From Burkholderia sp. USMB20 (GTDB lineage Bacteria; Pseudomonadota; Gammaproteobacteria; Burkholderiales; Burkholderiaceae): a stretch of 64,000 bases of DNA. Positions 41,831 to 64,000 of the stretch are shown piece after piece. How positions within the stretch are numbered: the first letter of the stretch is position 1; every line of letters starts with the position of its first letter. Location of the stretch: positions 248,001 through 312,000 of the forward strand of contig NZ_JTAN02000010.1 of the NCBI RefSeq assembly GCF_000949135.2, in the 5' to 3' direction. The notes beneath the pieces were generated by a model. That model ran no database searches, was not told the origin of the DNA, and worked only from the letters and a program-made list of their open reading frames with translations. A program made the position numbers and the translations under genes.

Positions 41831-41852
41831 GATGTGAGCGCCCGCTCACATC
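41831..41852. promoter_or_regulatory. Perfect palindrome between flgL and the nucleobase permease
   Basis: GATGTGAGCG (41831-41840), two C, CGCTCACATC (41843-41852). It lies 20 bases after flgL and has no T tract. It could be a hairpin ending flgKL mRNA or an operator for the following permease; half-sites resemble lac-type operators (tgtgagcg). Confidence 0.55.
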
Positions 41853-42044
41853 GGGCGGTGCGCCGGCCGGCCGCCGCCGATGCGGTCGCGCAGCGCCGAT
41901 TCCCGCGCCGATGCCCGCCCGGCAGGCACGCCCGCCGCCCCGGCGGTTCGCGCTTGCCAGCCCCATTTCCGCTCCGTAAACTCGCGCCAGATTCCAGACC
42001 GGCGCACCGTCCCGCAGCCGGCGTACGACAGGAGCCCTTTCCCC

Positions 42045-44872: not shown

Positions 44873-44873
44873 G

Positions 44874-44894
44874 CTTGTGATTCTAGATCACAAG
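44874..44894. promoter_or_regulatory. LysR-type operator between lysR gene and chrA pair
   Basis: CTTGTGAT (44874-44881), five bases, ATCACAAG (44887-44894): a perfect 8-bp dyad in the divergent promoter region. It contains T-N11-A pairs typical of LysR boxes. It also resembles a CRP site but has a 7-base spacer between TGTGA and TCACA instead of 6. Confidence 0.65.
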
Positions 44895-44956
44895 GACGCG
44901 CCGATAAAATCGTTTTGCCGGCGTGCCGCACGGCGGTAACCTCGGGGCATCGTTTG

Positions 44957-46107: not shown

Positions 46108-46165
46108 GCGGCGCACAACCGGCGTCCCGTGCGCGATACTGGCGCGACTCTTCACGGGAGGCTTG

Positions 46166-46957: not shown

Positions 46958-47317
46958 CGCGCGCAGGGGCCGCCGCCATGCGGCCGGCCGGTCCGCCGCG
47001 CGACCGAATCACCGGCTCATTGCGGCACCATCCGCCACGCTGCCCCAGCGCAACCCGTTGCTCCGGCCGCGCCTTACAGCGCCAGCCTTCGTCCCGCCAT
47101 CGCCGCGACCCGCATCCGTCGCGCGACAGGCAAGCCCGGCGCGGGAAACGTTGTTCCAGGGCGACAATCGCGCGCGACCGCGCGTTTCAATTTCTTTCAG
47201 CGTGCGCACTGGTCTTATGATTCAGCCCACATCGCGCGCGCCATGAGCGTCCGCGATCGCCACCCGGCTGCGCACGCGGCCGGCCATGAATGGAGACACC
47301 TACAAAAAGGAAAGCTC
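46958..47317 (+). other. Upstream region of the porin gene
   Basis: 360 bases without a recognisable gene between the DUF1275 gene and the porin start. It presumably contains the porin promoter in the less GC-rich stretch 47170-47230, but I cannot name a convincing -35/-10 pair. AAAAAGGAAAG before ATG 47318 is the ribosome site. Confidence 0.5.
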
Positions 47318-48439: not shown

Positions 48440-48484
48440 CGAAAATCGTCAACGCGTGCGCCGGCCCCGGTTCGGCGCGCATCG

Positions 48485-48515
48485 AAGAGGCTCCAGGAAG
48501 GAGCCTCTTTTTTTT
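48485..48515 (+). terminator. Rho-independent terminator of the porin gene
   Basis: GAGGCTCC / GGAGCCTC stem (48487-48494 with 48500-48507), 5-base loop, followed by eight or more T. Confidence 0.95.
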
Positions 48516-48814
48516 CGCCACGCGCCTTCCTGCGCGCAGACGACCATTCAGCGATTGCTCCATCGGGAACACGCCGCCCGTAAGGGTTCCGTCGGCATTC
48601 CAGAACATACTTTGACAGTGCGCGCGAAGCGATTCCGCTACGCTGCGTGCAGGGTCCGCCGCGTGCCGAAACGCACGCGCGGGCGTCGTTCCGGCGCGCG
48701 TTTCGCGTGCGGCCGGCCTGGTGCGTAACTTGTGTATCCGGTGATGACAAACACGGTCCGCCGGTTTTTTTTCGTGGGACGATGCGCTCACGATTTTCTT
48801 GAAAGGGGATGACG

Positions 48815-49039
48815 ATGGGTATCCTGAACACCGTGGGTGAAATCGCTGGCGCAGTGGCAGCCGTCGAGGCAGCCGAGAAGGTCGATCCGGATGCGGGCCT
48901 GCTGACCAAGGCGGCGGCGGCCGTCGCCGGCTTCAAGGGCGCCGAGGCGATCGAAGGCATGCTCGAGAAGAAGGAAGAGCAGCCGCAGCAGGCAGACGAC
49001 ACGCAGGCGACGGACGGCAGCGACACGTCGCAGGCCTGA
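48815..49039 (+). CDS. Small Ala/Glu-rich protein of unknown function
   Basis: 74 residues from ATG at 48815, favoured over ATG 48809 because the AAAGGGG ribosome site (48802-48808) needs spacing. The first 45 residues form an amphipathic Ala-rich segment (ILNTVGEIAGAVAAVEAAEKVDPDAGLLTKAAAAVAGFKGAEAIEGML) reminiscent of a membrane-associating helical hairpin; the rest is an acidic Gln/Asp/Ser tail (EEQPQQADDTQATDGSD). I do not recognise a family. It has its own terminator at 49164, so it is probably a real monocistronic gene. Confidence 0.72.
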   Translation: MGILNTVGEIAGAVAAVEAAEKVDPDAGLLTKAAAAVAGFKGAEAIEGMLEKKEEQPQQADDTQATDGSDTSQA

Positions 49040-49163
49040 GCAAGGCGGCTGGTCCCGCCGCGGGTGCGCCGTTCGCGCATCCGGGCGGACCGGTGCCGCG
49101 CGGCCGGCAGGCCGGGCATGTGGTCGATCGGTGACGCATGGCACACCCGGCAGCCGGTTTGAC

Positions 49164-49194
49164 CGGCGAGAGGCGACGTCTCTCGCCGTTTTTT
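49164..49194 (+). terminator. Terminator after the small Ala/Glu-rich gene
   Basis: Perfect 9-bp stem CGGCGAGAG / CTCTCGCCG (49164-49172 with 49180-49188), 7-base loop, then six T. Confidence 0.93.
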
Positions 49195-49283
49195 ATGGCG
49201 CGCGCGTCCTGCGCCGCCACGTTCCGCACGAATTCCCGAATCTTGCTATCGTGCCGTCATCCGAACTGCGATGAGGGCTTGCG

Positions 49284-50639
49284 ATGGATTTCGACTACGA
49301 CCTGTTCGTCATCGGGGCCGGCTCCGGCGGCGTGAGGCTCGCCCGGATGGCGGCGTCATACGGCGCGCGCGTCGGCATAGCGGAACAGGAGCAGATCGGC
49401 GGCACCTGCGTGCTGCGCGGCTGCATCCCGAAGAAGCTGCTCGTCTACGCATCGCACTATCCGCACGAACTCGAGGATGCGAAGGGCTTCGGCTGGACCT
49501 TCGGCGCCGGCACGCTCGACTGGTCCGCGCTGATCGCCGCGAAGGATCGCGAGATCAACCGGCTCAGCGACATCTACATCGACCTGCTGCGGCAATCCGG
49601 CGTCGCGATGCACGCAGGACGCGCGACCCTCGTCGACGCGCATACGGTCGCGATCGGCGAGCGCACGATCCGCGCGCGCCACATCGCGATCGCGACCGGC
49701 TCGCGGCCGGCGCTGCCGCACCGTCCCGGCATCGAGCATGCGATCACGTCGCGCGAGGCCCTGTCGCTCCCGGCGTGCCCCAAGCGCATCGCGGTGGTCG
49801 GCGGCGGCTATATCGCGGTCGAGTTCGCCGGCATCTTCAACGGCTTCGGCAGCCAGGTCGACCTGTTCTATCGCGGCGAGAAGATCCTGCGCGGCTTCGA
49901 CGACGACGTGCGCCAGTTCCTCACCGACGAAATGACGAAGCAGGGCGTCGCGATCCACGCGCGCGCAGTGGTCGAGTCGATCGCGCGCGCGGACGACGGC
50001 ACGCTCTCCGTGCACGTCGGCGACGCGCAGCACGGGCCGTACGACGCGGTGCTCTATGCGACCGGCCGCGTGCCGAACGTCGAAGGGCTCGGCCTCGAGC
50101 GCGCCGGTGTGATGCTCGACGCGCGCGGCGCGATCGCGGTCGATGCGTATTCGGCGACGTCGGTGCCTTCGATCCATGCGCTCGGCGACGTCACGTCGCG
50201 GCCGCAGCTCACGCCGGTGGCGACGCGCGACGGCGCGCTGCTCGCGCGCACGCTGTTCGGCGGCGCGCGCGTCGCGGCCGATCACGATTACGTCCCGTCG
50301 GCCGTGTTCAGCCAGCCGGAGGTCGCGACGGTCGGCCTGACCGAGGCCGATGCGCGTCGCGTGCACGGCGAAGTCGACATCTACCGCACGTCCTTCAAGG
50401 CGCTGCGCCACACGCTGTCGGGCCGCAACGAGCGCACGCTGATGAAGCTGGTGGTCGCGCGCGACAGCCAGCGCGTGATCGGCGCGCACATGGTCGGCCG
50501 CGACGCGGGCGAGATCATCCAGGGCATCGCGATCGCGATTCGCGCGGGCGCGACGAAGGCGCAATTCGACGACACGATCGGCATTCACCCGACCGCGGCC
50601 GAGGAGTTCGTGACGATGCGGCAGACGGCGGCCGACTGA
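49284..50639 (+). CDS. gorA: Glutathione-disulfide reductase
   Basis: 451 residues. FAD motif VIGAGSGGVRLARMAA, redox-active GGTCVLRGCIPKKLL (the CxxxxC pair with the R-G-C variant common in bacterial/plant-type reductases), NADPH motif VVGGGYIAVEFAGIF, FAD-contact ALGDVTSRPQLTPVA and the C-terminal GIHPTAAEEFVTM with the catalytic His-Glu pair contributed to the partner subunit. It keeps glutathione reduced in the cytoplasm. Length fits the family. Confidence 0.95.
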   Translation: MDFDYDLFVIGAGSGGVRLARMAASYGARVGIAEQEQIGGTCVLRGCIPKKLLVYASHYPHELEDAKGFGWTFGAGTLDWSALIAAKDREINRLSDIYIDLLRQSGVAMHAGRATLVDAHTVAIGERTIRARHIAIATGSRPALPHRPGIEHAITSREALSLPACPKRIAVVGGGYIAVEFAGIFNGFGSQVDLFYRGEKILRGFDDDVRQFLTDEMTKQGVAIHARAVVESIARADDGTLSVHVGDAQHGPYDAVLYATGRVPNVEGLGLERAGVMLDARGAIAVDAYSATSVPSIHALGDVTSRPQLTPVATRDGALLARTLFGGARVAADHDYVPSAVFSQPEVATVGLTEADARRVHGEVDIYRTSFKALRHTLSGRNERTLMKLVVARDSQRVIGAHMVGRDAGEIIQGIAIAIRAGATKAQFDDTIGIHPTAAEEFVTMRQTAAD

Positions 50640-51084
50640 CCGCCAGCGGCGCGCCGGCTCGCGGGCCGGCGCGGGCGTCCCGCGCACGCTCCGCTGGCGT
50701 GTGACGCACCATGGATCCGCGGCGATTTGTAAAGATCGTCAATTCTTCTAAAGAAATCCCGTCTCGATAATCAGACTTGGTATGATCGGCCAAAATCATA
50801 TACGGGGCCGATCATGCGCGATCAACAGCGCAGTAACCAGAATCACGCGGTAGCCGGCGCAAGCGGGGTCGTCGATCCATGCGCCGCGCGTTCGCGTCTC
50901 GCCGCAACACGTCCGTTGCGCGCACTTTCCCTTCGCATGCCGCCATCTCCATCGCCGTCCGGGCGATGAAGTCGCGCGCGCGCCGATGCGCGCCCCGGCC
51001 GCTTCGATCATCGCATCGACCGCCGGTTTGTCGGCAAGCCGGCGAGCCCGTTCCGGGCAATCTTTTCACGTAAGGAGACCCGCA
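50640..51084 (+). other. Upstream region of the three-lipoprotein operon
   Basis: 445 bases without a gene. Bases 50725-50820 are AT-rich and contain a perfect 10-bp dyad (50782-50791 with 50806-50815) that brackets a possible -10 region (tatacg). TAAGGAG before GTG 51085 is the ribosome site. No small reading frame is convincing. Confidence 0.55.
50782..50815. promoter_or_regulatory. Inverted repeat in the putative lipoprotein-operon promoter
   Basis: ATGATCGGCC and GGCCGATCAT, 14 bases apart (24 between centres), with an AT-rich interval. The layout fits an operator where a regulator dimer or two dimers cover the -10. There is no T tract, so it is not a terminator. Confidence 0.6.
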
Positions 51085-51762
51085 GTGAACATTCAGACAC
51101 GACGCACCGTTCTCGTGGCAGCGGCGCTCGTCGCGGCGCTGTCCGGCTGCGCGACCGAATCGTCGCGCACGCTCGACGTGCCGGCCGTGAGCAGCGCGCA
51201 GAAGCCGTACGCGGGCAAGCCCGTCGCGATCGCGGTCGGCAAGTTCGACAACCGCTCGAGCTACATGCGCGGCATCTTCTCGGACGGCATCGACCGCCTC
51301 GGCGGACAGGCGAAGACGATCCTCGTTACGCGCCTGCAGCAGAGCCGCCGCTTCAACGTGCTCGATCGCGAGAACCTCGACGAGATCAAGCAGGAAGCGG
51401 GCTTCATGAAGAAGGCGCAGGCGGTGAAGGGCGCGAACTACGTCGTGACCGGCGACGTGACCGAGTTCGGCCGCAAGGACGTCGGCGATCACCAGCTGTT
51501 CGGCATTCTCGGCCGCGGCAAGACGCAAGTCGCGTACGCGAAGGTCAACCTGAACATCGTCGACACGACGACGTCGGAAGTCGTCGCGTCGAGCCAGGGC
51601 GCGGGCGAGTTCAGCCTGTCGAACCGCGAAGTGATCGGCTTCGGCGGCACGGCCGGTTACGACTCGACGCTCAACGGCAAGGTGCTGGACCTCGCGATCC
51701 AGGAGGCCGTGAATCATCTCGTCGACCAGGTCGACGCGGGCACGCTGAAGGTGCCGCAATAG
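51085..51762 (+). CDS. CsgG/HfaB-family lipoprotein
   Basis: 225 residues starting at GTG 51085 with TAAGGAG upstream. The lipobox VAALSGCAT gives an acylated Cys near residue 21. VAIAVGKFDNRSSYMRGIFSDGIDRLGGQAKTILVTRLQQSRRFNVLDRENLDEIKQEA is the CsgG fold core; YVVTGDVTEFGRKD and the Gly-rich later strands are also present. CsgG forms the outer-membrane curli secretion pore, but there are no csgA/B genes here and the family is broad, so a pore role is an inference. It leads a three-gene operon. Confidence 0.87.
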   Translation: MNIQTRRTVLVAAALVAALSGCATESSRTLDVPAVSSAQKPYAGKPVAIAVGKFDNRSSYMRGIFSDGIDRLGGQAKTILVTRLQQSRRFNVLDRENLDEIKQEAGFMKKAQAVKGANYVVTGDVTEFGRKDVGDHQLFGILGRGKTQVAYAKVNLNIVDTTTSEVVASSQGAGEFSLSNREVIGFGGTAGYDSTLNGKVLDLAIQEAVNHLVDQVDAGTLKVPQ

Positions 51763-51817
51763 GCGCCGTGCGCAGTTCGGCGCGACGAATCATTCATCAA
51801 CCAGAAGAGACAAGACC

Positions 51818-52258
51818 ATGAAACGGGGAATCTGGCTGCCGGCGACGGCGGCCGTCATGCTGCTCGCGGGCTGCGCGGCGCCGACCACGCCGCCGCTCTA
51901 TCAATGGAACGGCTATCAGCCGCAGGTGTACGAATACTTCAAGGGGCAGAAGTCCCCGCAGGAGCAGATCGACGCGCTCGAAAAAGCGCTGCAGGAGATC
52001 CGCGCGAAGGGCAAGACGCCGCCGCCGGGCTTCCATGCGCATCTCGGGATGCTCTACGCGAGCGTCGGCAGCGAACAGCAGGCCGGGCAGGAATTCCAGG
52101 CCGAGAAGGCGCTCTTTCCGGAATCCGCGTCGTTCATGGATTTCCTGATGAAGAAGAAAGCCGGCGATGCGAAGGCCGCGAAGGCCGCGAATCCGTCGGC
52201 TGCCGGCCAGACGATCGCCGGCCAGAAGAATGCCGATCCGACTCCCGCCAAACAGTGA
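51818..52258 (+). CDS. DUF4810-type lipoprotein
   Basis: 146 residues. The signal peptide ends in the lipobox VMLLAGCAAP. The mature part begins YQWNGYQPQVYEYFKG, a DUF4810-like motif, followed by helical segments with TPR-like features (GFHAHLGMLYASVGSEQQAGQEFQAEKALFPES) and an Ala/Lys tail. It is the second member of the CsgG-DUF4810-GNA1162 trio. Function unknown; probably a periplasm-facing envelope adaptor. Confidence 0.82.
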   Translation: MKRGIWLPATAAVMLLAGCAAPTTPPLYQWNGYQPQVYEYFKGQKSPQEQIDALEKALQEIRAKGKTPPPGFHAHLGMLYASVGSEQQAGQEFQAEKALFPESASFMDFLMKKKAGDAKAAKAANPSAAGQTIAGQKNADPTPAKQ

Positions 52259-52268
52259 CGTGCCTGCC

Positions 52269-52943
52269 ATGATCAAGACACTTTCATTCAAGCTGCTGTC
52301 CGTGCTGTCGATCGTCGCGCTGTTGAGCGCGTGCGCGCAGCCCGTCAAACGCCCCGACTACACGGCCTTCAAGAAGAGCCAGCCGCGCTCGATCCTCGTG
52401 CTGCCGCCGCTCAACGAGACGACCGATGTCGGCGCGACCTACGGCGTGCTGTCGCAGATGACGCAGCCGCTGGCCGAGTCGGGCTACTACGTGGTGCCGG
52501 TCGCGGTGATGGACGAGACGTTCAAGCAGAACGGCCTCACGAACGCCGCGGAAATCCAGGGCACGTCGCCGGCGAAGCTGCGCGAAATCTTCGGCGCGGA
52601 CGCCGCGCTGTACGCGAAGATCACGCAATACGGCTCCGTCTACCAGGTGGTGGACAGCACGACGGTGGTCGCGGCGTCGGCGAAGCTCGTCGACCTGAAG
52701 ACCGGCGACGTGCTGTGGCAGGGCGAGGGCCGTGCGACCGGCAAGGAAGTCGGCAACAACATGAGCGTCAACGCGTTCGGGGTCGTCGGCATGCTGGTGC
52801 AGGCGGCCGTCAAGCAGGTCGCGCATTCGCTGACCGACGAAGCGCACGATGTGGCCGGTTTGACGAGCAGCAGGCTGCTGTCCGCGGGGCCGCCGAACGG
52901 GCTGCTGTACGGGCCGCGTTCGCCGAAGTACGGGACCGACTGA
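52269..52943 (+). CDS. GNA1162/DUF799-family lipoprotein
   Basis: 224 residues from ATG at 52269. The lipobox IVALLSACAQ gives an acylated Cys. SILVLPPLNETTDVGATYGVLSQMTQPLAESGYYVVPVAVMDETFKQNG is the family core; the meningococcal homologue GNA1162 is a surface-associated vaccine-candidate lipoprotein whose fold resembles TolB/CsgG-type anticodon-like domains. It lies 10 bases after the DUF4810 gene, clearly the same operon, followed by a bidirectional terminator at 53023. Confidence 0.86.
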   Translation: MIKTLSFKLLSVLSIVALLSACAQPVKRPDYTAFKKSQPRSILVLPPLNETTDVGATYGVLSQMTQPLAESGYYVVPVAVMDETFKQNGLTNAAEIQGTSPAKLREIFGADAALYAKITQYGSVYQVVDSTTVVAASAKLVDLKTGDVLWQGEGRATGKEVGNNMSVNAFGVVGMLVQAAVKQVAHSLTDEAHDVAGLTSSRLLSAGPPNGLLYGPRSPKYGTD

Positions 52944-53022
52944 CCGGCGCGCGGACCACGGCTTCGGCGCGTCGGGCAGGCAAGGTCGCCTGCATGCCGT
53001 GCCGAAGCCGCGAGATTCGATG

Positions 53023-53049
53023 AAACGGCCGCGCTTGCGCGGCCGTTTT
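53023..53049. terminator. Bidirectional terminator between the lipoprotein operon and the oxidase genes
   Basis: AAACGGCCGCGC / GCGCGGCCGTTT (53023-53034 with 53037-53048), two-base loop, T runs on both strands. It serves the convergent genes ending at 52943 (plus) and 53091 (minus). Confidence 0.9.
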
Positions 53050-53090
53050 GCGTGGCCGGTACGTCGCGTGCGTCGTGCCGGCGCCGCCGC

Positions 53091-54392
53091 TCAATGCATG
53101 CCGAACGCGTCGAGCAGCCGGTACCAGCTCATCGCGAGCACCAGCGCCGGCGTGCGCAGCGTCGCGCCGCCGGGGAAGTCGCGATGCCGGATCTTGCCGA
53201 ACAGGTCGAAGCGGCTCGCCTGGCCGTCGATCGCCTCGGCGATCAGCTTGCCCGCGAGCGCGGTCGTGTTCACGCCGTGCCCCGAGAAACCCTGCGCGAA
53301 ATACAGCGTCGGCGCGACGCGCCCGAAGTGCGGCGCGCGGTTCATCGTGATGTCGACGAAGCCGCCCCATGCGTAGTCGACCTTCACGTCCGCGAGCTGC
53401 GGGAACGTCTTCAGCATGTCCGCGCGCATCGCGTCGGCGAGATTGCGCGGCGGCCGCGTCGAATAGCTGACCTTGCCGCCCCACACGAGCCGCGTGTCGG
53501 GCGCCGGCCGGAAATAGTCGAGCACGAAGCGGCTGTCGCAGACCGCCGCGCGCGCGGGCATCAGCGCGGCGGCGCGCGCCGCGCCGAGCGGCTCGGTCGC
53601 GATCACGTAGGTGCCGACCGGCATGATCTTCTTCGACAGCGCGGGCGCGAGCGTGCCGACGTACGTGTTGCACGCGAGCACCACGAAGCGCGCGCGCACC
53701 TCTCCCTGGCCGGTCTCGACGACGTGGCCGCCCGACACGTCGCGCACGCGCGTCACGCAGCTGTCCTCGTGGATCCGCACGCCCGCGTCGGCGGCCGCGC
53801 GCGCGAGCCCGAGCGTGTAGTTCAGCGGATGCAGGTGGCCGCTGTCGGGGTCGTACAGGCCGCCGCGATAGCGCGCCGATTGCACGTAGTCGCCGAGTTC
53901 GTCCGCTTCGACGAAATGCAAGCGGTCGTAACCGAAGCGCTTCGCGGCCTCGTCGCGCCAGCGTTTCAGCGCATCCGCGTCGCGCTCGGTGTTCGCGGCG
54001 GTCAGGTAGCCGGGCACGAGCGCGCAGTCGATGTCGTGCTTCGCGATGCGCGACTTCACGAGCGACAGCGTTTCGAGCCCCATGTCCCAGATCCGCTTCA
54101 CGTCGCCTTCCGGCATGAAGTTGCCGAACGTGTCGATGTCGCATGCAAAGCCGCCGATCAGCTGGCCGCCGTTGCGCCCGCTCGCCGCCCATCCGACCCG
54201 CGACGCCTCGAGCACGGTCACCGAATGGCCGCGCTCGGCGAGGTTGAGCGCGGCGGACAAGCCGGTGAGGCCCGCGCCGATCACGCACACGTCGGCGTCG
54301 GTCGCGCCGGCGAGCGGCGCATGGCGGGTCGTATCGTTGGCGGTCGCCGCGTAGTACGACGCGACGTGCGGCTGGTTGGCGAATGTCTGCAT
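53091..54392 (-). CDS. FAD-dependent amine oxidase, gamma-glutamylputrescine oxidase-like (A)
   Basis: 433 residues. The FAD motif VIGAGLTGLSAALNLAERGHSVTVLEASRVGWAASGRNGGQ is the DAO/PuuB/OrdL type; the C-terminal FAQGFSGHGVNTTALAGKLIAEAI completes the flavin site. PuuB oxidises gamma-glutamylputrescine in putrescine breakdown, which fits the PotGHI-like transporter genes upstream in the same direction. The paralogue at 63402 on the plus strand starts with the same SYYA.TAND pattern, so A is the mirror copy of that gene. Confidence 0.88.
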   Translation of the reverse strand: MQTFANQPHVASYYAATANDTTRHAPLAGATDADVCVIGAGLTGLSAALNLAERGHSVTVLEASRVGWAASGRNGGQLIGGFACDIDTFGNFMPEGDVKRIWDMGLETLSLVKSRIAKHDIDCALVPGYLTAANTERDADALKRWRDEAAKRFGYDRLHFVEADELGDYVQSARYRGGLYDPDSGHLHPLNYTLGLARAAADAGVRIHEDSCVTRVRDVSGGHVVETGQGEVRARFVVLACNTYVGTLAPALSKKIMPVGTYVIATEPLGAARAAALMPARAAVCDSRFVLDYFRPAPDTRLVWGGKVSYSTRPPRNLADAMRADMLKTFPQLADVKVDYAWGGFVDITMNRAPHFGRVAPTLYFAQGFSGHGVNTTALAGKLIAEAIDGQASRFDLFGKIRHRDFPGGATLRTPALVLAMSWYRLLDAFGMH

Positions 54393-54417
54393 GATCAGGA
54401 AAACGAATGAAGGGGGC

Positions 54418-55722
54418 TCAGAACAGCTCGCGTACGCGGTGGTACAGCATCCCGAGTTCGAGCGCGGGCTGCCGCCATGCGTCGCCGCCGGGAAAGCGCC
54501 GGTGGCGCAGCTGCGCGAACAGGTCGAACGCGCGCGTGTCGCCCGCGATCGCGCCGGCGATCGCGCGTCCGGCGATGCCGGTCAGCGCGACGCCGTGCCC
54601 GCTGAAGCCATGGACGTAGAAGAAGTTCGGATCGAGCGCGCCGAAGTCCGGCGCGCGGTTGCGCGTGACGTCGACGAAGCCGCCCCACGCGTGGTCGACG
54701 CGCACGTCGGCGAGCTGCGGGAACACGCCGACCATGCGCTGCCGGATCGTGTCGGCGAGCGTGTCGGGCGACGCGCCCGCGGAGTTCGCGCGGCCGCCGA
54801 ACAGCATCCGGTGGTCGGCCGACAGCCGGAAGTAGTCGAGGAAGAAGTTGTTGTCGCACACGGCTTCGCGCTGCGCGATCAGCGCGTCGGCGCGCGCGCG
54901 GCCGAGCGGTTCGGTCGCGATGATGTACGACGCGATCGGCGCGATGCGCGCGGCGGTCGCGGCCGGCAGGATGCCGCCGGGGCCCGCGTTGCAGCACGAC
55001 ACGACGAAGCGGCAGCGCACCTCGCCCGACGGCGTGCGCACGACCGGCCGGGCGCCGCGCACGACGTCGAGCGCGGGCGTGTGCGCGTGGAGCGCGACAC
55101 CTTCGCGGCGCGCGGCCTCGGCGAGGCCGAGGCAATACTTGAGCGGATGCAGGTGGCCCGACAGCGGATCGTAGACGCCCGCCAGATAGCGCGGCGACGC
55201 GATGCGCGCGCGGATTTCGCCGGTGTCGAGCCACGACAGCGACGGATGGCCCCAGCGCGAGCGCGCGGCATCCATCCAGGCGCGAAGGTCGTCGATGCGG
55301 CGCGGCTTGGTCGCGACCGTCAGGTAGCCGCGCGTGAAGTCGCAGTCGATGCCGTGGCGCGCGATCCGCTCGGCGATCAGCGCGACGCCGTCGAGCGACA
55401 GCGACCACGCGGCGCGTGCGCCGGCCGCGCCGAGCTGCTGCTCGATCACCTCGTCTTTCGCGAAACCCGTGATCGCCTGTCCGCCGTTGCGGCCCGATGC
55501 GCCCCAGCCGGGCCGATGCGCATCGATCACGGCGACCGACAGCCCGCGCGCACGGCAATCGAGCGCCGTCGACAGGCCCGCGAAGCCCGCGCCGATCACG
55601 CACACGTCGACGTCGATCGCTTCCTCGAGCACGGGGTCGTCGGCCACGGGGCGCGTGGCGGTTGCTTCGTAGTACGAGTCGCGCGCGAGCGCGTCGGCGC
55701 GGCGGGTGAAAGACTGCGTCAT
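54418..55722 (-). CDS. FAD-dependent amine oxidase, gamma-glutamylputrescine oxidase-like (B)
   Basis: 434 residues from ATG at 55722 (MTQSFTRRADALARDSYYEATAT); the frame is open to 55803 but homology and the GGAG site favour 55722. The DAO motif is VIGAGFAGLSTALDCRARGLSVAVIDAHRPGWGASGRNGGQ, and the C-terminal FYVHGFSGHGVALTGIAGRAI is also present. It is clearly paralogous to gene A, 25 bases downstream. Two such oxidases in tandem suggest different amine substrates. Confidence 0.88.
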   Translation of the reverse strand: MTQSFTRRADALARDSYYEATATRPVADDPVLEEAIDVDVCVIGAGFAGLSTALDCRARGLSVAVIDAHRPGWGASGRNGGQAITGFAKDEVIEQQLGAAGARAAWSLSLDGVALIAERIARHGIDCDFTRGYLTVATKPRRIDDLRAWMDAARSRWGHPSLSWLDTGEIRARIASPRYLAGVYDPLSGHLHPLKYCLGLAEAARREGVALHAHTPALDVVRGARPVVRTPSGEVRCRFVVSCCNAGPGGILPAATAARIAPIASYIIATEPLGRARADALIAQREAVCDNNFFLDYFRLSADHRMLFGGRANSAGASPDTLADTIRQRMVGVFPQLADVRVDHAWGGFVDVTRNRAPDFGALDPNFFYVHGFSGHGVALTGIAGRAIAGAIAGDTRAFDLFAQLRHRRFPGGDAWRQPALELGMLYHRVRELF

Positions 55723-55834
55723 CAAACCGACTCCGTCGAAGACGGCCGGCGCCGGTGCGCGACGCACCGCGATCCGGCCGGGTGAAACGATGCGGGACGC
55801 CATGCGCGCGGCACGGCGTCCCGCGCGGCCCGCA

Positions 55835-57409
55835 TCAGAACGAATAGATGAACTGCGTCGCGAGCAGGTCGTTGGACTTGCCGTACGAACCGTCGTTGCG
55901 CAGGAACACCTTGTTGTTCGCCCAGTCGTGCCGGTATTCGACCTTCACGGTGATCTGCTGGGTCGGATAGAACAGCAGGTCGAGCGCGACGTCCTGGCGC
56001 ACCGCGCCCTTGCACTCGAAGCCCAGGCCGCCGCCGGCCTTCGACTGCGCGAGGCAGTCCGCGTCGACGCCGAAGCCGTTGCTCGGATCCATCCCGTTGC
56101 CGTTCAGCGCGATGCCGCCGCCGCCGCCGCCGTTCTTCGAGTTGGCGAGCAGGTCGTAGCGCAGCGTCACGCCCATGCGGCCGACCACCGGCGCGTTGAA
56201 CTTGCGGTGCGCGAGCAGCGACAGGCCGTACCACTGCGCGAGCCCGCCGTTGAACGCCGCATGCTGCTGCCGGCCGTAGTCGACTTCGGCGTTGTACTGA
56301 ATGTCGGCGAGCGTGTAGGTCGCGTCGAGTTCGCCGAAGAAGAACGAACCGTACGCGCTCGGTGCCGCGCCGCCCGGGCCGTAGTGGACGTTGCCCTGGT
56401 CGTCGATCGCGCTCGCCAGCGTCTGCCGCCCGATGTTGAACGAACCGCCGATGTCGAGCGCGCTCGACCACGTGTAGTCCGCGCGCGCGGTGAAGGTCGG
56501 CACCTTGTTGCTGGTGGAGATCGGATCGCCGAGTGCGTTGGTGCCCGTCTGCGTGACCGAACCGTACGTGCGGTACTGCTCGTTGCCGAGGAAGAACTTC
56601 CACGCCCAGGCGCCCTTCGTGTAGTTCGCGCCGATACCGACGTAGCTGCCCGGATCCGAGAAATCGTACAGCAGGTTGTGCGTGAGCGTGAGCATCTGGT
56701 TCGACTGCTGCACCTCGTAGCCGCCGAAGCTCGGGATCAGGCCGGCGACGAGTGTCGTCTCGGCGGTGATCGGTACGTTGACGACCGCGGTGTTCAGCAG
56801 GTTGTCGGTGATCGAGCCGCGCGAGTTCTGCAGCAGCGTGATGCCGTTGCCGCGGTTCGGCATCAGCGTGATCTCTGCCGACGGCGCCATCGGGCCGACG
56901 CCGAAGGTCTTCTTGATGTCGAGGTAGAGATCGCCGAACGTGCTGTTGAAGTAGTTGTACGCGTTCTCGTGGTTCGCGAACAGGAACGACGACGTGCCGG
57001 CCGCGCGGTTGTAGATGTAGGTCGGGTCGATGTAGCCGGTGACCGACAGGCCCGCGAGCGGCCCGGTGTTGGCCGCGTCCGTCAGCGAGTCGACCTTCAG
57101 CTGCTGGTTCGCGATCTGCTGCTTCATTTCACTGACTTCGTCGTTGGTCAGCGTGGCTTGAGCCTTGCCGTAGTCCGGCGACGACGGGTCGGCGGCCACG
57201 ATCACCGGCTTAGCCGCGGTCGTCGCGCCGGCCTGCGCGACCGGGGTGCCGCCCGGCTTCGCGGCGAGCTGCGCCTGCATGGCCTTCATCTGCTTCTGCA
57301 GCGCGGCGACCTGCGCCTGCAAGGCCTTGATTTCGGCGGAGGTCGAGTCGGCCAGCGCGATGCCGGGCAACGCGCCGGCCACCAGCAGGCAGATCAGTTT
57401 CTTCTTCAT
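55835..57409 (-). CDS. DUF3138-type outer-membrane protein (copy 1)
   Basis: 524 residues. The signal peptide MKKKLICLLVAGALPGIALA is followed by a short coiled coil (AEIKALQAQVAALQKQMKAMQAQLAAK), then a linker and a long beta-rich domain with Tyr/Gly-rich alternation ending in QFIYSF (C-terminal Phe), as in outer-membrane barrels. I assign it to DUF3138 from memory. The N-terminal coiled coil plus barrel recalls OprO/P-like trimeric channels. Sitting between potI and amine oxidase genes, it may be the outer-membrane entry route for polyamines. Confidence 0.8.
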   Translation of the reverse strand: MKKKLICLLVAGALPGIALADSTSAEIKALQAQVAALQKQMKAMQAQLAAKPGGTPVAQAGATTAAKPVIVAADPSSPDYGKAQATLTNDEVSEMKQQIANQQLKVDSLTDAANTGPLAGLSVTGYIDPTYIYNRAAGTSSFLFANHENAYNYFNSTFGDLYLDIKKTFGVGPMAPSAEITLMPNRGNGITLLQNSRGSITDNLLNTAVVNVPITAETTLVAGLIPSFGGYEVQQSNQMLTLTHNLLYDFSDPGSYVGIGANYTKGAWAWKFFLGNEQYRTYGSVTQTGTNALGDPISTSNKVPTFTARADYTWSSALDIGGSFNIGRQTLASAIDDQGNVHYGPGGAAPSAYGSFFFGELDATYTLADIQYNAEVDYGRQQHAAFNGGLAQWYGLSLLAHRKFNAPVVGRMGVTLRYDLLANSKNGGGGGGIALNGNGMDPSNGFGVDADCLAQSKAGGGLGFECKGAVRQDVALDLLFYPTQQITVKVEYRHDWANNKVFLRNDGSYGKSNDLLATQFIYSF

Positions 57410-57511
57410 TGCGGATTCTCCTTGTCGTGCGCTTGGTCAATCTGTGATCGGCCTGCGCGCCGCGTCTCGCGGCGCGCGGGTCTTGTTATCGATGAAAAGG
57501 GAAGCGGGGCG

Positions 57512-58351
57512 TCAGGCCGCCGCGAACGCCGCCTTCATGTCGGCCACCCGGCGCCGTTCGCGCGCGATCATCATCTGGTTCACGACGATCACGCCGATCG
57601 TCACCGCGGTGATGAACAGCGTTGCCAGTGCGTTCATTTCCGGGTTCAGCCCGAGCCGCACGCGCGAGAACACCACCAGCGGCAGCGTGGTCGAGCCCGG
57701 CCCCGACAGGAACGCCGACAGCACCAGGTCGTCGATCGACAGCGTGAACGACAGCAGCCAGCCCGACAGCAGCGCCTGCGAGATCAGCGGCAGCGTCACC
57801 ACGAAGAACACCTTCAGCGGCGTCGCACCCAGGTCGAGCGCGGCTTCCTCCAGCGACTTGTTCATCTCCTTCACGCGCGACTGCACGATGATCGCCACGT
57901 ACGACACGCACAGCATCACGTGGCCGATCCAGATCGTCACCATCCCGCGGCCCTTCGGCCAGCCGAACATCTGCTCCAGCGCAACGAACAGCAGCAGCAG
58001 CGAGATCCCCTGGATCACCTCCGGAATCACCAGCGGCGCGTTGATCATCCCCGTGTACAGCGTGAAGCCCTTGAAGCGGCCGAAGCGCGCGAGCACGAAG
58101 CCCGCCCACGTGCCGATCACGACCGACGCGGTGGCGGTCAGGAGGCCGATCTTCAGCGACAGCCACGCGGCGGTGAGCAGCTCGTCGTCCTGCCACAGCG
58201 CCGCGTACCACTTCAGCGAGAAGCCCGACCACACCGTCACCAGCTTCGACTCGTTGAACGAGTACACGACCAGGCTGATGATCGGGATGTACAGGAACAG
58301 GAAGCCGAAGGCGAGGACGCCCGTCGACAGCGGTTTGCTCGGCTTGATCAT
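57512..58351 (-). CDS. potI: Polyamine ABC transporter permease PotI-like (copy 1)
   Basis: 279 residues, about six helices. GVLAFGFLFLYIPIISLVVYSFNESKLVTVWSGFSLKWYAAL is the PotC/PotI start. The coupling loop is SLEEAALDLGATPLKVFFVVTLP. SIDDLVLSAFLSGPGSTTLPLVVFSRVRLGLNPEMNALATL is characteristic of the putrescine-type permease. It overlaps potH by four bases. The protein is about 85-90% identical by eye to the plus-strand copy at 60856. Confidence 0.92.
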   Translation of the reverse strand: MIKPSKPLSTGVLAFGFLFLYIPIISLVVYSFNESKLVTVWSGFSLKWYAALWQDDELLTAAWLSLKIGLLTATASVVIGTWAGFVLARFGRFKGFTLYTGMINAPLVIPEVIQGISLLLLFVALEQMFGWPKGRGMVTIWIGHVMLCVSYVAIIVQSRVKEMNKSLEEAALDLGATPLKVFFVVTLPLISQALLSGWLLSFTLSIDDLVLSAFLSGPGSTTLPLVVFSRVRLGLNPEMNALATLFITAVTIGVIVVNQMMIARERRRVADMKAAFAAA

Positions 58352-59337
58352 TTCGCTTCCTCCAGTTCCTTGACCTGGTAGTACTGGAACAGCGCCATCG
58401 GCACCAGCAACAGCAGCACCATCGCGACCGTCACCGCGGACGCCATCGGCCAGTCCATGTTGTTGAAGAATTCATCCCACATCACGCGGCCGATCATCAG
58501 CGTGTCGGCGCCGCCGAGCAGTTCCGGAATCACGTACTCGCCGACTGCCGGGATGAACACCAGCAGGCTGCCGGCGATGATCCCGTTCTTCGACAGCGGC
58601 AGCGTGATGCGCGTGAACGCGACCCACGGCTTCGCGCCGAGGTCGTAGGCGGCCTCGAGCAGCGTGAGGTCCATCTTCACGAGGTGCGCGTAGAGCGGCA
58701 TCACCATGAACGGCAGGTACGAATAGACCATCCCGATGTAGACGCCCGCGTCGCTGTGATAGAGGCGCAGCGGCGTGTGGATGATGCCGAGTGCGATCAG
58801 CGTGTGGTTCAGGAGGCCGTCATCCTTCAGGATTCCGATCCATGCGTACACGCGGATCAGGAACGACGTCCAGAACGGCAGCATCACGGCCATCATCAGC
58901 ACGTTGCGCCGGCCCGGCTCCGAGCGTGCGATGTAGTACGCCATCGGGAAGCCGATCAGCAGGCACAGCAGCGTCGACACGGCGGCCATCTTCAGCGAGC
59001 TGAGATAGGTCGCGATGTACAGGTCGTCCTGCAGCAGGAACGCGTAGTGCGACAGCTGCAGCGCGAAGTGCACGACGCCGTCCTTGATCTCGACGAGCGA
59101 CGTGTACGGCGGGATCCCCATCACCTGGTCGGCGAAGCTGATCTTGAACACCAGCACGAACGGCAGCGCGAAGAAGATCACGAGCCACAGGAACGGCACG
59201 CCGATCGCGACGCCGCGGCCCGACGGCAGGAAGCGCGACAGCGCGGCGAAGCGGCTGCGGCGCTTCGAAGCCTGTGTCGTTGCGGCGGCACCGGTCGAAA
59301 CCGGCGCGGACGGCGTGGAGGCGGAAGTTCTCATCAT
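58348..59337 (-). CDS. potH: Polyamine ABC transporter permease PotH-like (copy 1)
   Basis: 329 residues. The N-terminal cytoplasmic tail (Ala/Ser/Thr-rich, about 45 residues) leads to LPSGRGVAIGVPFLWLVIFFALPFVLVFKISFADQ, the first helix. The coupling loop is LLEAAYDLGAKPWVAFTRITLPLS. It is the complete version of the permease that is truncated at 59981. It lies 7 bases after the potG fragment in reading direction. Confidence 0.93.
   Translation of the reverse strand: MMRTSASTPSAPVSTGAAATTQASKRRSRFAALSRFLPSGRGVAIGVPFLWLVIFFALPFVLVFKISFADQVMGIPPYTSLVEIKDGVVHFALQLSHYAFLLQDDLYIATYLSSLKMAAVSTLLCLLIGFPMAYYIARSEPGRRNVLMMAVMLPFWTSFLIRVYAWIGILKDDGLLNHTLIALGIIHTPLRLYHSDAGVYIGMVYSYLPFMVMPLYAHLVKMDLTLLEAAYDLGAKPWVAFTRITLPLSKNGIIAGSLLVFIPAVGEYVIPELLGGADTLMIGRVMWDEFFNNMDWPMASAVTVAMVLLLLVPMALFQYYQVKELEEAK
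59149..59229 (-). repeat. 81-bp inverted repeat, arm 1 (inside potH copy 1)
   Basis: The reverse complement of 59149-59229 is identical over 81 bases to 59981-60061, starting ctgccgtcgggccg and ending gtgctggtg. On both sides of this block the two potH copies show scattered differences. Confidence 0.95.
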
Positions 59338-59344
59338 GTCGTCC

Positions 59345-59980
59345 TCACTGCGTCAGCACGACGCCGCTGGCCGGCGACCACGACACGAACACGTCGTCGT
59401 TCCACGCCGGCGCGCTGTCGTGCATCAGGTGCGAGCTCGACAGGTTCGACACGACCGTCTTGCCGCTCGGCAAACGCACGTGATACAGCGAGTAGGCGCC
59501 CATGTACGCGATGTCGGTCACCACGCCGCGCGCCCAGTTGTGATGCGAGCCCGGCTTCTCGCGCGATACGTGCACGCGCTCCGGCCGCACCGAGATGCCC
59601 ACCGGCATCCCGAGCGGGCCGGTCACGCCGTGGCTCACGTACATGCGTGCCTCGAGGTCGTCGCTTTCGACGAAGATGTGATCGGGTTCGTCCTCGACCA
59701 CGCGGCCTTCGAACAGGTTCGTCGAGCCGATGAACTCGGCCGAGAAGCGGCTGTTCGGGTATTCGTACACTTCGCCCGGCGTGCCGATCTGCACGATCTT
59801 GCCTTCGCTCATCACCGCGAGGCGGCTCGCCATCGTCATCGCCTCTTCCTGGTCGTGCGTGACCATCACGCAGGTCACGTCGACCTTCTCGATGATGTTC
59901 ACCAGTTCGAGCTGGGTCTTCTGGCGGATCTTCTTGTCGAGCGCGGACATCGGCTCGTCGAGCAGCAGCAGCTTCGGGCG
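59345..59980 (-). pseudogene. potG: Polyamine ABC transporter ATPase PotG, C-terminal fragment
   Basis: About 211 codons remain of a protein that is normally near 380. The fragment begins RPKLLLLDEPMSALDKKIR (Walker B), continues through the H-loop CVMVTHDQEEAMTMASRLAVM and holds the whole C-terminal TOBE-like region (SVRPERVHVSRE). The Walker A motif and ABC signature are missing because the sequence switches at 59980/59981 to a potH gene on the other strand. ATG 59950 is only an internal Met. No intact ATPase for either permease pair is in the window. Confidence 0.9.
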
Positions 59981-60061
59981 CTGCCGTCGGGCCGCGGCGT
60001 CGCGATCGGCGTGCCGTTCCTGTGGCTCGTGATCTTCTTCGCGCTGCCGTTCGTGCTGGTG
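59981..60061 (+). repeat. 81-bp inverted repeat, arm 2 (start of potH copy 2)
   Basis: Identical to the reverse complement of 59149-59229. Its left edge coincides exactly with the point where potG sequence stops. Confidence 0.95.
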
Positions 60062-60859
60062 CTGAAGATCAGCTTCGCGGACCAGATGCTCGGCATCCCG
60101 CCATACACCGCGCTCGCACGCCTCGAAGCCGGCACGTTACGGGTCGTGCTGTCGCTGAAGCATTACGCGTTGCTGCTGCAGGACGACCTGTATCTGAACA
60201 CCTACGTCAGTTCGCTGAAGATGGCCGCCGCGTCGACGCTGATGTGCGTGCTCGCCGGCTATCCGATCGCGTACTGCATCGCTCGCGCGGCGCCGGCACG
60301 CCGAAACCTGCTGATGATGGCCGTGCTGCTGCCGTTCTGGACGTCGTTCCTGATTCGCGTCTACGCGTGGGTCGGGATCATGAAGGACGACGGCCTGCTG
60401 AATCACGCGCTGGCGGCGCTCGGCATCATCCACACGCCGCTGCGCCTCTATCACACCGATGCGGGCGTCTACATCGGGATGGTCTATTCGTACCTGCCGT
60501 TCATGGTGATGCCGCTCTATGCGCATCTCGTGAAGATGGACCTCACGCTGCTCGAGGCCGCGCACGATCTCGGCGCGACACCGTGGTCGGCGTTCTGGCG
60601 CATCACGCTGCCGCTGTCGAGAAACGGGATCGTCGCGGGCAGCCTGCTCGTGTTCATTCCGGCCGTCGGCGAATACGTGATTCCGGAACTGCTCGGCGGC
60701 GCGAACACGCTGATGCTCGGCCGCGTGATGTGGGACGAGTTCTTCAACAACATGGACTGGCCGATGGCGTCCGCGGTGACGGTGACGATGGTGGCGCTGC
60801 TGCTCGTGCCGATGGCGCTGCTCCACTACAGCCAGGCCGAAGCGGAGGGGCGCTCATGA
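59981..60859 (+). pseudogene. potH: Polyamine ABC transporter permease PotH-like, 5'-truncated (copy 2)
   Basis: The coding region begins in mid-gene at LPSGRGVAIGVPFLW; the N-terminal tail and start codon seen in copy 1 (about 38 residues) are absent, and the upstream bases are antisense potG. From there to the stop all six helices and the coupling loop (LLEAAHDLGATPWSAFWRITLPLS) are intact. Translation would need a GTG or ATG inside the first helix region. It overlaps potI copy 2 by four bases, as in copy 1. Confidence 0.88.
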
Positions 60860-61788
60860 CCCGCGCGAATCGCATGTGGTCCGCCGGCGTGCTGGGTGCG
60901 GGCTTCCTGTTCCTGTACATCCCGATCATCAGCCTGGTCGTGTACTCGTTCAACGCGTCGAAGCTGGTGACGGTGTGGTCCGGTTTCTCGTGGCGCTGGT
61001 ACGGCGCGCTGCTGCACGACGGCGAACTGCTGACGGCCGCATGGCTGTCGCTGAAGATCGCGCTGCTGACGGCGACCGCGTCGGTCGCGATCGGCACGTG
61101 GGCGGGCTTCGTGCTGGCCCGCATGGGGCGCTTTCGCGGTTTCACGCTCTATGCGGCGATGATCAACGCGCCGCTGGTGATTCCCGAAGTGATCCAGGGC
61201 ATCTCGCTCCTGCTGCTGTTCGTCGCGATGCAGCAAACCTTCGGCTGGCCCGCGGGGCGCGGTTGGCTGACGATCTGGATCGGCCACGTGATGCTGTGCC
61301 TTTCGTTCGTCGCGGTGATCGTGCAGTCGCGCGTGAAGGAGCTCGACCGCTCGATCGAGGAAGCCGCGCTCGATCTCGGCGCGCGGCCGTTGAAGGTGTT
61401 CTTCGTGATCACGCTGCCGCTGATCGCGCAGGCGCTGGTGTCGGGCTGGCTGCTCGCATTCACCGTGTCGATCGACGACGTCGTTCTTTCCGCCTTCCTG
61501 TCGGGCCCCGGTTCGACGACGCTGCCGCTCGTCGTGTTCTCGCGCGTTCGGCTCGGACTCAACCCGAGGATGAACGCGCTCGCGACGGTGTTCATCGCGG
61601 TCGTGACGATCGGCGTCGTCGTCGTGAACCGCTCGATGCTGGCTCGCGAAGGGCGGCAGGCTCGCGAGGCGCGTGCATGGCACGCGGCCGCCGCGCCGGA
61701 CACGCCGGCTGCGCCGTCCGCGTCGCCGCCCGCTCGTCCGTCGGCCGCGCACGCGCGGCACGACCCCGCACCGCATCCCGTGAAGTGA
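60856..61788 (+). CDS. potI: Polyamine ABC transporter permease PotI-like (copy 2)
   Basis: 310 residues from ATG at 60856. The sequence runs parallel to copy 1 (GVLGAGFLFLYIPIISLVVYSFNASKLVTVWSGFSWRWYGALL; SIEEAALDLGARPLKVFFVITLP; SIDDVVLSAFLSGPGSTTLPLVVFSRVRLGLNPRMNALATV). It has an extra C-terminal tail rich in Ala, Pro, Ser and His (about 40 residues) not found in copy 1. It is coupled to the truncated potH upstream. Confidence 0.91.
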   Translation: MTRANRMWSAGVLGAGFLFLYIPIISLVVYSFNASKLVTVWSGFSWRWYGALLHDGELLTAAWLSLKIALLTATASVAIGTWAGFVLARMGRFRGFTLYAAMINAPLVIPEVIQGISLLLLFVAMQQTFGWPAGRGWLTIWIGHVMLCLSFVAVIVQSRVKELDRSIEEAALDLGARPLKVFFVITLPLIAQALVSGWLLAFTVSIDDVVLSAFLSGPGSTTLPLVVFSRVRLGLNPRMNALATVFIAVVTIGVVVVNRSMLAREGRQAREARAWHAAAAPDTPAAPSASPPARPSAAHARHDPAPHPVK

Positions 61789-61809
61789 ACAACGACAAGG
61801 AGACGCTGG

Positions 61810-63375
61810 ATGAAAAAGAAGATGCTTTGCGCGCTGGTCGCCGGCGCGTTGCCGGGGTTGGCGGCCGCGAGTTCGAGCGCCGACCAGATCAGGACGCTGC
61901 AGCAGCAGATCGCCGTGCTGCAGCGGCAGATGAGCGCGCTGCAATCACAACTGGCCGCGAAACCGGCGGCTGCTCCGGTGTCGTCCACCGTGGCGGCGGG
62001 TGCGTCCGCGGCCGACCCGTCGGCGTCCGGCTACGGGCAGGCGCCGGCCGTGCTGACCAACGACGACGTGACCGAGATCCGCCAGCAGGTCGCGAACCAG
62101 CAACTGAAGGTCGACTCGCTGACCGACGCCGCGCGTACCGGGCCGATCGCGGGCCTGTCGGTGACCGGCTATCTCGATCCGACCTATGTATACAACCGCG
62201 GCGCCGGCACGTCGTCGTTCCAGTTCGCGAACCACGAGAATGCCTACACGTACTACAACAGCACGTTCGGCGACGTATTCCTCGACATCAAGAAGACGTT
62301 CGGTGTCGGGCCGAGCGCACCGTCCGCTGAAATCACGCTGATGCCGAACCGCGGCGCCGGCCTGTCGATGATGACGGGCAGCGGCGCGAGCGGGCTCGAC
62401 ATCGTGAATACGGCGGTCGTTACGGTGCCCCTGTCGGGCACGACCGCGTTCGTCGGCGGGCTGGTGCTCGGCTTCGGCGGCTACGAGTACCAGCAGTCGA
62501 ACCAGATGCTCACGCTCACGCACAACCTGCTGTACGACTTCTCGGATCCGGGTTCGTCGATCGGCGCGGGCATCAACTACCTGAGCCCGAGCGGCCAGTG
62601 GGCGTGGAAGTTCTTCGTCGGCAACGAACAGTTCCGCAGCGCCGGCGCGGTCACGCAGACCGGCGTGAACGCGCTCGGCGACCCGATCACGACGAGCAAC
62701 AAGGTGCCGACCTTCACCGCGCGCGTCGACTACCTGCGCGGCAGCGCGCTCGACATCGGCGGGTCGATCAACATCGGCCGCCAGACGCTGCCGAGCGCGA
62801 TCGACCCGGCCACCGGCAACGTGCACTACGGCGTGGGCGGCAATGCGCCGAGTGCCTATGGCGCGTTCTTCTTTGCGGAAGCCGATGCGACCTACACGCT
62901 CGCCGACGCGCAGTACAACGCCGAGCTCGATTACGGCCAGCAACAGCACGGCGCGTTCAACGGCGGGTTGGCGCAGTGGTTCGGGTTGTCGCTGCTCGCA
63001 CATCGCAAGTTCAACGTGCCGGTGGTCGGTCGCATGGGCGCGACGTTGCGCTACGACCTGCTCGTCAATCGCAGGAACGGCGGCGGCGGATCGTCGATCG
63101 GCCTGAACGGCAACGGAATGGACCCGTACAACGGCTTCGGCATCGATGCGGACTGCCTCGCGATGTCGAAGGCGAACGGCGGCGTCGGCTTCGAGTGCAA
63201 GGGCGCGACGCGGCAGGCGGCCGCATTCGACCTGCTGTTCTATCCGACCCAGCAGGTGACGGTCAAGGTCGAGTACCGGCACGACTGGGCGAGCAACAAG
63301 GTATTCCTGCGTCACGACGGGTCGTACGCGAAGTCGAACGACCTGCTCGCGACCCAACTCATCTACGCGTTCTGA
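61810..63375 (+). CDS. DUF3138-type outer-membrane protein (copy 2)
   Basis: 521 residues, colinear with copy 1: signal peptide MKKKMLCALVAGALPGLAAA, coiled coil (QIRTLQQQIAVLQRQMSALQSQLAAK), GLSVTGYLDPTYVYNRGAGTSSF, IKKTFGVGPSAPSAEITLMPNRG and the terminal TQLIYAF. The barrel is strongly conserved while the linker after the coiled coil differs. It starts 21 bases after potI with AAGGAG as ribosome site. Confidence 0.82.
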   Translation: MKKKMLCALVAGALPGLAAASSSADQIRTLQQQIAVLQRQMSALQSQLAAKPAAAPVSSTVAAGASAADPSASGYGQAPAVLTNDDVTEIRQQVANQQLKVDSLTDAARTGPIAGLSVTGYLDPTYVYNRGAGTSSFQFANHENAYTYYNSTFGDVFLDIKKTFGVGPSAPSAEITLMPNRGAGLSMMTGSGASGLDIVNTAVVTVPLSGTTAFVGGLVLGFGGYEYQQSNQMLTLTHNLLYDFSDPGSSIGAGINYLSPSGQWAWKFFVGNEQFRSAGAVTQTGVNALGDPITTSNKVPTFTARVDYLRGSALDIGGSINIGRQTLPSAIDPATGNVHYGVGGNAPSAYGAFFFAEADATYTLADAQYNAELDYGQQQHGAFNGGLAQWFGLSLLAHRKFNVPVVGRMGATLRYDLLVNRRNGGGGSSIGLNGNGMDPYNGFGIDADCLAMSKANGGVGFECKGATRQAAAFDLLFYPTQQVTVKVEYRHDWASNKVFLRHDGSYAKSNDLLATQLIYAF

Positions 63376-63401
63376 CGCGACGCCGCACGCGAATGTCACT
63401 C

Positions 63402-64000
63402 ATGCTCAAGTTTGAATACCAGCAACATGCTCAGTCCTACTACGCAGATACCGCCAACGACCGGACCCGCCATCCGTCGCTCGACGGTGCCGTTTCCGCC
63501 GACGTGTGCGTGATCGGCGGCGGGCTCACCGGCCTGTCCGCGGCGCTCGATCTCGCCGAGCGCGGCCATTCGGTCGTGCTCGTCGAGGCGTCGCGAATCG
63601 GCTGGGGCGCCAGCGGCCGAAACGGCGGCCAGTTGATCGCCGGGTACTCATGCGACATCGATACGTTCTCGGCCCATCTGCCGGAACACGACGTGCGGCA
63701 GATATGGGCGATGGGGCTCGAATCGGTCGATATCGTCCGGCAGCGGGTCGAGCGGTATGGCATCGACTGCGACCTGACCCTCGGCTATCTCACGGCCGCG
63801 AACAAGACGCGCCACATCGACGCGCTCCGCAAATGGCGCGACACCGCGGCGAGCCGCTTCGGCTATCGCGGCTACGACATCGTCGAGCGCGCGGACATGC
63901 CGCGCTTCGTCGCATCCGATCGTTATGTCGGCGGCCTGCGTCACGAAGGCAGCGGCCACCTGCATCCGCTGAACTACACGCTCGGCCTCGCGCGCGCGGC
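63402..64000 (+). CDS. FAD-dependent amine oxidase, partial at window end
   Basis: About 199 codons from ATG 63402 (MLKFEYQQHAQSYYADTAND) to the window edge; ATG 63393 is possible, but alignment to the minus-strand paralogue (same 15 residues to SYYA) favours 63402. The DAO/PuuB motif VIGGGLTGLSAALDLAERGHSVVLVEASRIGWGASGRNGGQ is present, and HLHPLNYTLGLARA is shared with gene A. It completes the mirror order potH-potI-DUF3138-oxidase. Confidence 0.88.
   Translation, partial: MLKFEYQQHAQSYYADTANDRTRHPSLDGAVSADVCVIGGGLTGLSAALDLAERGHSVVLVEASRIGWGASGRNGGQLIAGYSCDIDTFSAHLPEHDVRQIWAMGLESVDIVRQRVERYGIDCDLTLGYLTAANKTRHIDALRKWRDTAASRFGYRGYDIVERADMPRFVASDRYVGGLRHEGSGHLHPLNYTLGLARA

Follow-up and report, generated by a model that had tools for sequence, protein, structure and literature searches.

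The 64,000-nucleotide stretch of Burkholderia sp. USMB20 DNA analyzed here (contig NZ_JTAN02000010.1, positions 248,001 to 312,000; hereafter the window) carries two polyamine-uptake operons, A and B, that diverge from a head-to-head junction at 59980/59981. The comparison with related genomes indicates that this junction is very probably an assembly misjoin between the two operons, brought about because the ATPase gene potG stays almost identical on several replicons through repeated gene conversion. In the proposed course of events the contig carrying operon B in the window's assembly would have begun one overlap (81 bases) inside the homogenised potG tract, the contig carrying operon A would have ended within potG, and the two contig ends would then have been put together wrongly oriented. 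One of the explanations offered in a preliminary description of this DNA was a false join of two related operons, and it is strongly supported by the placement of the operons on different replicons, by the failure to find the junction in relatives and by the breakage of draft assemblies at the same tract.

Reading outward from the junction, the minus strand (arm A) contains the end of potG followed by potH, potI, the gene of a DUF3138 protein and two flavin adenine dinucleotide (FAD) oxidase genes, and the plus strand (arm B) contains a 5'-truncated potH, potI, a DUF3138 gene and an FAD oxidase gene that runs off the window. The mirror-image gene order given in the preliminary description stands from potH to the FAD oxidase, but the piece of potG belongs to arm A only and arm B has none. 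The breakpoint itself had been described accurately: the potG fragment ends at 59980, where it meets the truncated potH frame opening on the opposite strand at 59981, and exactly 81 bases are identical when counted from 59981 (plus strand) and 59229 (minus strand), with different bases immediately outside this block and scattered differences beyond. Matching blocks in the corresponding genes of the two arms are 77–93% alike. Operon positions are numbered hereafter from window position 59980 (position 1) down the minus strand, which places the 81-base block at 752–832.

The nearest genome compared shares 34% of the sampled 31-letter words of the window, and the nearest named relatives are Burkholderia. 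Four types of operon were distinguished among the fetched loci: type A, a full operon with the DUF3138 gene and two oxidase genes; type A', consisting of potGHI only; type B; and type C, whose potG is 77–78% identical to that of type A within genomes. The left arm of the window is of type A, and positions 40000–59980 match a single contig in order, in gapped pieces, in each of seven genomes. Over its full 4020 bases the right arm is 88.5–93.3% identical to ten loci of type B (all but the first base at one of them). In genomes assembled into few contigs, type A lies on a contig of 3.3–3.9 Mb, type A' on one of 3.0–3.6 Mb and type B on one of 0.98–1.53 Mb, and these sizes suggest chromosome 1, chromosome 2 and the third replicon, respectively. 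In closed relatives operon A is found on the largest contig and operon B on a small one of about 0.9–1.5 Mb. An 880-kb plasmid of B. pyrrocinia carries operon B in full, with the genes of the binding protein, the ATPase, both permeases, the DUF3138 protein and the FAD oxidase. In B. arboris MEC_B345 operon B lies on NZ_CP101526 (1.26 Mb), and the left half of a query built on the junction matches NZ_CP101525 (3.5 Mb), at the related potGHI copy A' and not at a full operon A. To judge from these matches, arm A is a pot operon of the large Burkholderia chromosome and arm B a different operon, located in closed relatives on a small separate replicon. The loss of the 5' ends of both arms, as described previously, is true of this sequence only, since the relatives carry intact operons of both types. 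Each of them has its own potG, and the idea of two permease pairs left without an ATPase is not sustained.

The A' copies (L014, L020, L025, L028, L031 and L002) are almost identical to operon A from potG through potH to potI, and no match to potF or DUF3138 was found for them within the fetched stretch. A DUF3138-like match (68–69%) lies some 21–39 kb away on the same contig in five genomes with A'.

The junction was searched for in three ways. A 401-base junction query was compared with 41 genomes, 36 of which gave matches, and no match among those listed extends more than 7 bases past the junction. A 46-base junction word had 0 exact matches in the genome contig collection searched, and none of 142 loci contains a 20-base word that reaches 6 or more bases to both sides of the junction. 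Spanning 31-mers were present in 42 of these 142 loci, through a word reaching only one base past the junction that is ordinary potG sequence, and this count was replaced by the 20-mer test. Among the genomes and loci searched, the junction was not found and both of its sides are intact elsewhere.

A closer inspection of the operons within single genomes revealed where types A and B resemble each other. The mean A-B identity in seven genomes is 78.8% for potF, 96.4% for potG (93.7–98.2%), 84.8% for potH and 79.9% for potI. The similarity of A to B increases sharply at around position −450 and is lost between roughly 600 and 856, depending on the genome (in this profile the A rows of genome G003 were shifted by a short locus and left unused, and the A row of G014 carries a 127-base duplication). 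The resulting tract of about 1.1–1.3 kb comprises potG, plus the first bases of potH in several genomes, and is near-identical between operons on two or three replicons, while the genes flanking it differ by 15–20% between operons. A and A' copies of the same genome are 97.8–100% alike in potG (n=5) and are also alike in potH and potI, where their similarity ends. Both cut ends of the window, at positions 1 and 752, fall inside the tract.

The 81-base block had been taken as a mark of the junction. The identical block is real, but it is not peculiar to the junction. Eight genomes with an A or A' copy plus a B copy could be compared at this place, and in three of the eight an exact run between the copies contains the whole block (G024, 710–853; G023, 714–856; B. 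arboris, 723–854, A' versus B). Other exact runs at this place lie in G012 (732–819) and in G014 (A' versus B, 749–792 and 800–856). Just before the block, the eight B copies have ten bases that equal those of the window's A copy in six cases and are one base off in two; therefore, the left edge of the block looks set by the junction and not by the start of a homology. Most likely, then, the homogenised potG-potH tract ends with this block, whose left edge was made by the junction.

The tract also interrupts other assemblies. Twelve Burkholderia B-type loci were taken from 80 loci, with the types checked by sequence, and five of them are cut by a contig end at position 176, 331, 626, 664 or 778; a contig end is expected by chance in a given 1.3 kb in about 6% of cases (some 200 contigs in 8–9 Mb, as in G010 and G013). 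A sixth affected B-type locus, L074 (B. catarinensis scaffold_7), switches operon inside the tract: its upstream part (1–2000) is A-type (93.6–94.0% to A, 80% to B) and its downstream part (3500–6500) is B-type (91–93% to B, 81% to A), a pattern that could stem from the assembler swapping the two operons or from genuine crossing-over of two replicons. In G013 the tract contains a contig end of type A (496), one of type A' (91) and one of type B (176). The A and B contigs of G010 begin at the same position, 664, and diverge after exactly 127 common leading bases. In operon A of G014 (L032, from 8499) potG is split into two overlapping matches at an exact 127-base tandem duplication, which is not a multiple of three and is probably an unmerged contig overlap. 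At repeats, short-read contigs start a fixed overlap before the point of divergence, unmerged overlaps appear as tandem duplications, and copies may be swapped or falsely joined; a maximum word size of 127 is common among short-read assemblers. The patterns of G010 and G014 fit those expected of contigs overlapping by a fixed 127-base word, and arm B of the window, which starts exactly 81 bases before the divergence between A and B, has the same anatomy with another length. The fixed-overlap starts, the exact tandem duplication and the possible swap of copies resemble repeat-induced breaks and misjoins in short-read assemblies, but the repeat is here an ATPase gene of 1.1–1.3 kb rather than a ribosomal RNA operon or an insertion sequence. 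Moreover, the two sides meet head to head, with no undetermined letters (Ns) between them.

In two further drafts the contigs with operon A (L043 in G001 and L040 in G003) end about 2.1–2.3 kb upstream of the potG reference point, just past potF, which hints at another repeat there.

Several observations weigh against a misjoin. There are no Ns in the window, so that the junction is not a plain scaffold gap, and the head-to-head orientation, with the 5' side of potG facing potH, is not what a simple walk through a repeat gives. Six of the 12 B-type loci pass through the tract unbroken, no exact end overlap was found among the contig ends of G013 in the tract, and the equation of 81 with an assembler overlap length is drawn by analogy with the 127-base cases. 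Finally, in three of the eight genomes compared at the block (G016, G005 and G003) the near-identity of A and B ends before it and no exact run of at least 40 bases is present there.

The continuity of the sequence would also suit a real rearrangement private to this strain, in which a segment of operon B from another replicon was end-joined, by a non-homologous or microhomology-mediated route, inside the chromosomal potG and left two truncated operons. The homogenised tract could bring both loci together, about 2–3 bases are common at the join (the listed matches of the 401-base query overlap at 201–203), and the B. catarinensis contig also passes from A to B in the tract, though in the same direction. 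However, so few common bases are compatible with chance, the junction occurs in no relative searched and both ends fall in the tract at which other assemblies are interrupted. Had the two operons recombined homologously there, the product would read in one direction, from potF of A through potG to potH of B. A real rearrangement is for these reasons considered improbable. A homologous crossover in potG was likewise rejected as the origin of the junction, since it would yield a same-direction hybrid and not a head-to-head arrangement; the hybrid form is that of L074, be it real or misassembled.

The homogenisation that underlies the proposed misjoin was followed in trees and at third codon positions. 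The potG tree restricted to the core (operon positions −400 to 600, 32 rows; C copies were left out of the potG and potH trees) unites the copies of each genome in a single clade for all 10 multi-copy genomes, nine of them with starred support; the ten include G009 and G002, which have A and A' only, added to the eight with a B copy. A single clade of B copies is rejected by the approximately unbiased (AU) test (p-AU 0.00012). In the potH tree, on the contrary, the B copies form one clade with support of 100 and genome clades are rejected in eight of eight cases (p ≤0.0086). Orthology by locus is also indicated for potI by an untested tree, and for potF by identities only. Third-position identity in potG between A and B copies is 92.5% within genomes (n=7) versus 85.2% between genomes (n=146), and 86.6% between A copies of different genomes (n=136); rows with stops or frame breaks were dropped, which kept 41 potG, 41 potH, 35 potF and 34/40 potI rows. 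Copies of potG thus cluster by genome while the flanking potH keeps its orthology by locus, and the effect is seen at silent positions. The trees and third positions establish concerted evolution, from which we infer recurrent gene conversion between replicons as the reason why potG is homogenised across them. Recent gene conversion, suggested in the preliminary description for the 81 bases, would accordingly be present, yet it extends over most of potG (about 1.1–1.3 kb), has acted repeatedly and is not confined to the block.

Two points tell against recurrent conversion. Trimming to the potG core was decided after the result of the full-length tree, and this quick tree gives one clade in only five of the eight B-carrying genomes; a genome clade is not rejected in the other three (G016, G014 and G023; p 0.125–0.244). 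Moreover, homogenisation in draft genomes could partly be assembly collapse, as A and A' of G014 are identical. Genomes G012, G016 and G024, each in 3–4 contigs, and B. arboris MEC_B345 show the pattern as well. That the similarity of potG stems from strong selection on the protein or from one old replacement is very unlikely: PotG is indeed the protein best conserved between operon types, but the third codon positions give the same pattern, which speaks against purifying selection alone, and the potG core clusters by genome in all ten multi-copy genomes. A single old replacement would leave the B copies as one clade, which the trees reject. Homogenised potG is hence found in all multi-copy Burkholderia genomes compared; it appears genuine, and the 81-base block is most likely its edge.

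Fold-back or template switching during replication, proposed earlier as the source of the mirror arrangement and the 81-base block, would agree with the head-to-head geometry and with an identical block ending at the breakpoint, but it is not needed and hardly conceivable, because near-identical inverted arms would be required and the arms are different operons (77–93% alike in matching blocks, potH of type B forming a clade separate from type A in other genomes, and the right arm of the window matching B operons), and because near-identity between A and B at the block occurs in several relatives that lack the junction.

PotG is a subunit of a transporter complex. Its concerted evolution is a newly found case of a known kind of process. 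According to the main text of PMC6053082, 26 prokaryotic genes that evolve concertedly include the electron transfer flavoprotein subunit genes of Burkholderiales, and 22 of the 26 encode proteins of stable complexes. As in these genes and in tufA/tufB, copies of potG within a genome are closer to each other than to the orthologues of other species, third positions included, and the product belongs to a complex, as do the products of most of the 26 genes. Unlike them, the potG copies are distributed over two or three replicons, and between A and B it is one operon gene, that of the ATPase, that is homogenised, its partners diverging. The main text of PMC6053082 contains none of the words potG, polyamine, spermidine, putrescine, ABC, permease, transporter and ATP-binding, and conversion of potG in Burkholderia is not mentioned in the titles and abstract openings of the literature searched. 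As a tentative explanation, for which the odds are rather poor, Burkholderia would maintain a common ATPase sequence for its two or three polyamine importers on different replicons through recurrent inter-replicon conversion that stops near the ATPase gene, favoured by selection because the ATPase is exchangeable between importers with diverging permeases and binding proteins; conversion may instead simply persist where identity is highest.

No biological meaning should be given to the junction, and gene models that span it are not trustworthy. In a wider sense, potG of Burkholderia is a hidden cross-replicon repeat that corrupts drafts, as seen in broken contigs, a possible operon swap and a 127-base duplication. 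It also offers a clean natural case of one subunit gene homogenised between replicons while its operon neighbours diverge, and raises the questions of what sets the boundaries of conversion and of whether a common transporter ATPase is maintained.

The features of both arms are collected in Table 1.

Table 1. Junction, identical block and genes of the two operons in the window
Feature	Coordinates	Strand	Remarks
Junction	59980..59981		potG of operon A (read toward its 5' end) meets potH of operon B (about codon 37 on)
81-base block, arm B	59981..60061	+	Matches arm A exactly; interpreted as the end of the homogenised potG-potH tract
81-base block, arm A copy	59149..59229	-	Same block
potG 3' part, operon A ATPase	59345..59980	-	Open reading frame (ORF); TOBE domain, PF08402 TOBE_2; cut at 59980; continuous with longer potG in relatives
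potH, operon A permease	58348..59337	-	ORF; PF00528
potI, operon A permease	57512..58351	-	ORF; PF00528
DUF3138 protein, operon A	55835..57409	-	PF11336; also PF07642 BBP2 putative beta-barrel porin model
FAD-dependent oxidase, operon A, proximal copy	54418..55803	-	ORF; PF01266
FAD-dependent oxidase, operon A, distal copy	53091..54392	-	ORF; PF01266
potH, operon B, 5'-truncated	59981..60859	+	ORF; 95% amino-acid identity to B. pyrrocinia operon B
potI, operon B permease	60856..61788	+	ORF; PF00528
DUF3138 protein, operon B	61810..63375	+	ORF; profile match
FAD-dependent oxidase, operon B	63402..64000	+	Runs off the window; first ATG 63393 or 63402; gene order as in B. pyrrocinia operon B

The operons have the layout of PotFGHI-type polyamine ATP-binding cassette (ABC) importers, in which a binding protein, a TOBE-domain ATPase and two permeases are encoded together; in the window the TOBE-domain ATPase and the two binding-protein-dependent permeases lie within one operon. 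They differ from these importers in the DUF3138 protein and FAD oxidases encoded after the transporter genes. Polyamine is assigned as the substrate by annotation. The two oxidase genes of operon A are arranged in tandem, and the only oxidase encoded by the B. pyrrocinia operon B is closer to the distal arm A copy (66% amino-acid identity) than to the proximal one (50%). The DUF3138 proteins of both arms match the BBP2 putative beta-barrel porin model, and their position beside the polyamine importers suggests that they are candidate outer-membrane channels for the substrates of these importers.

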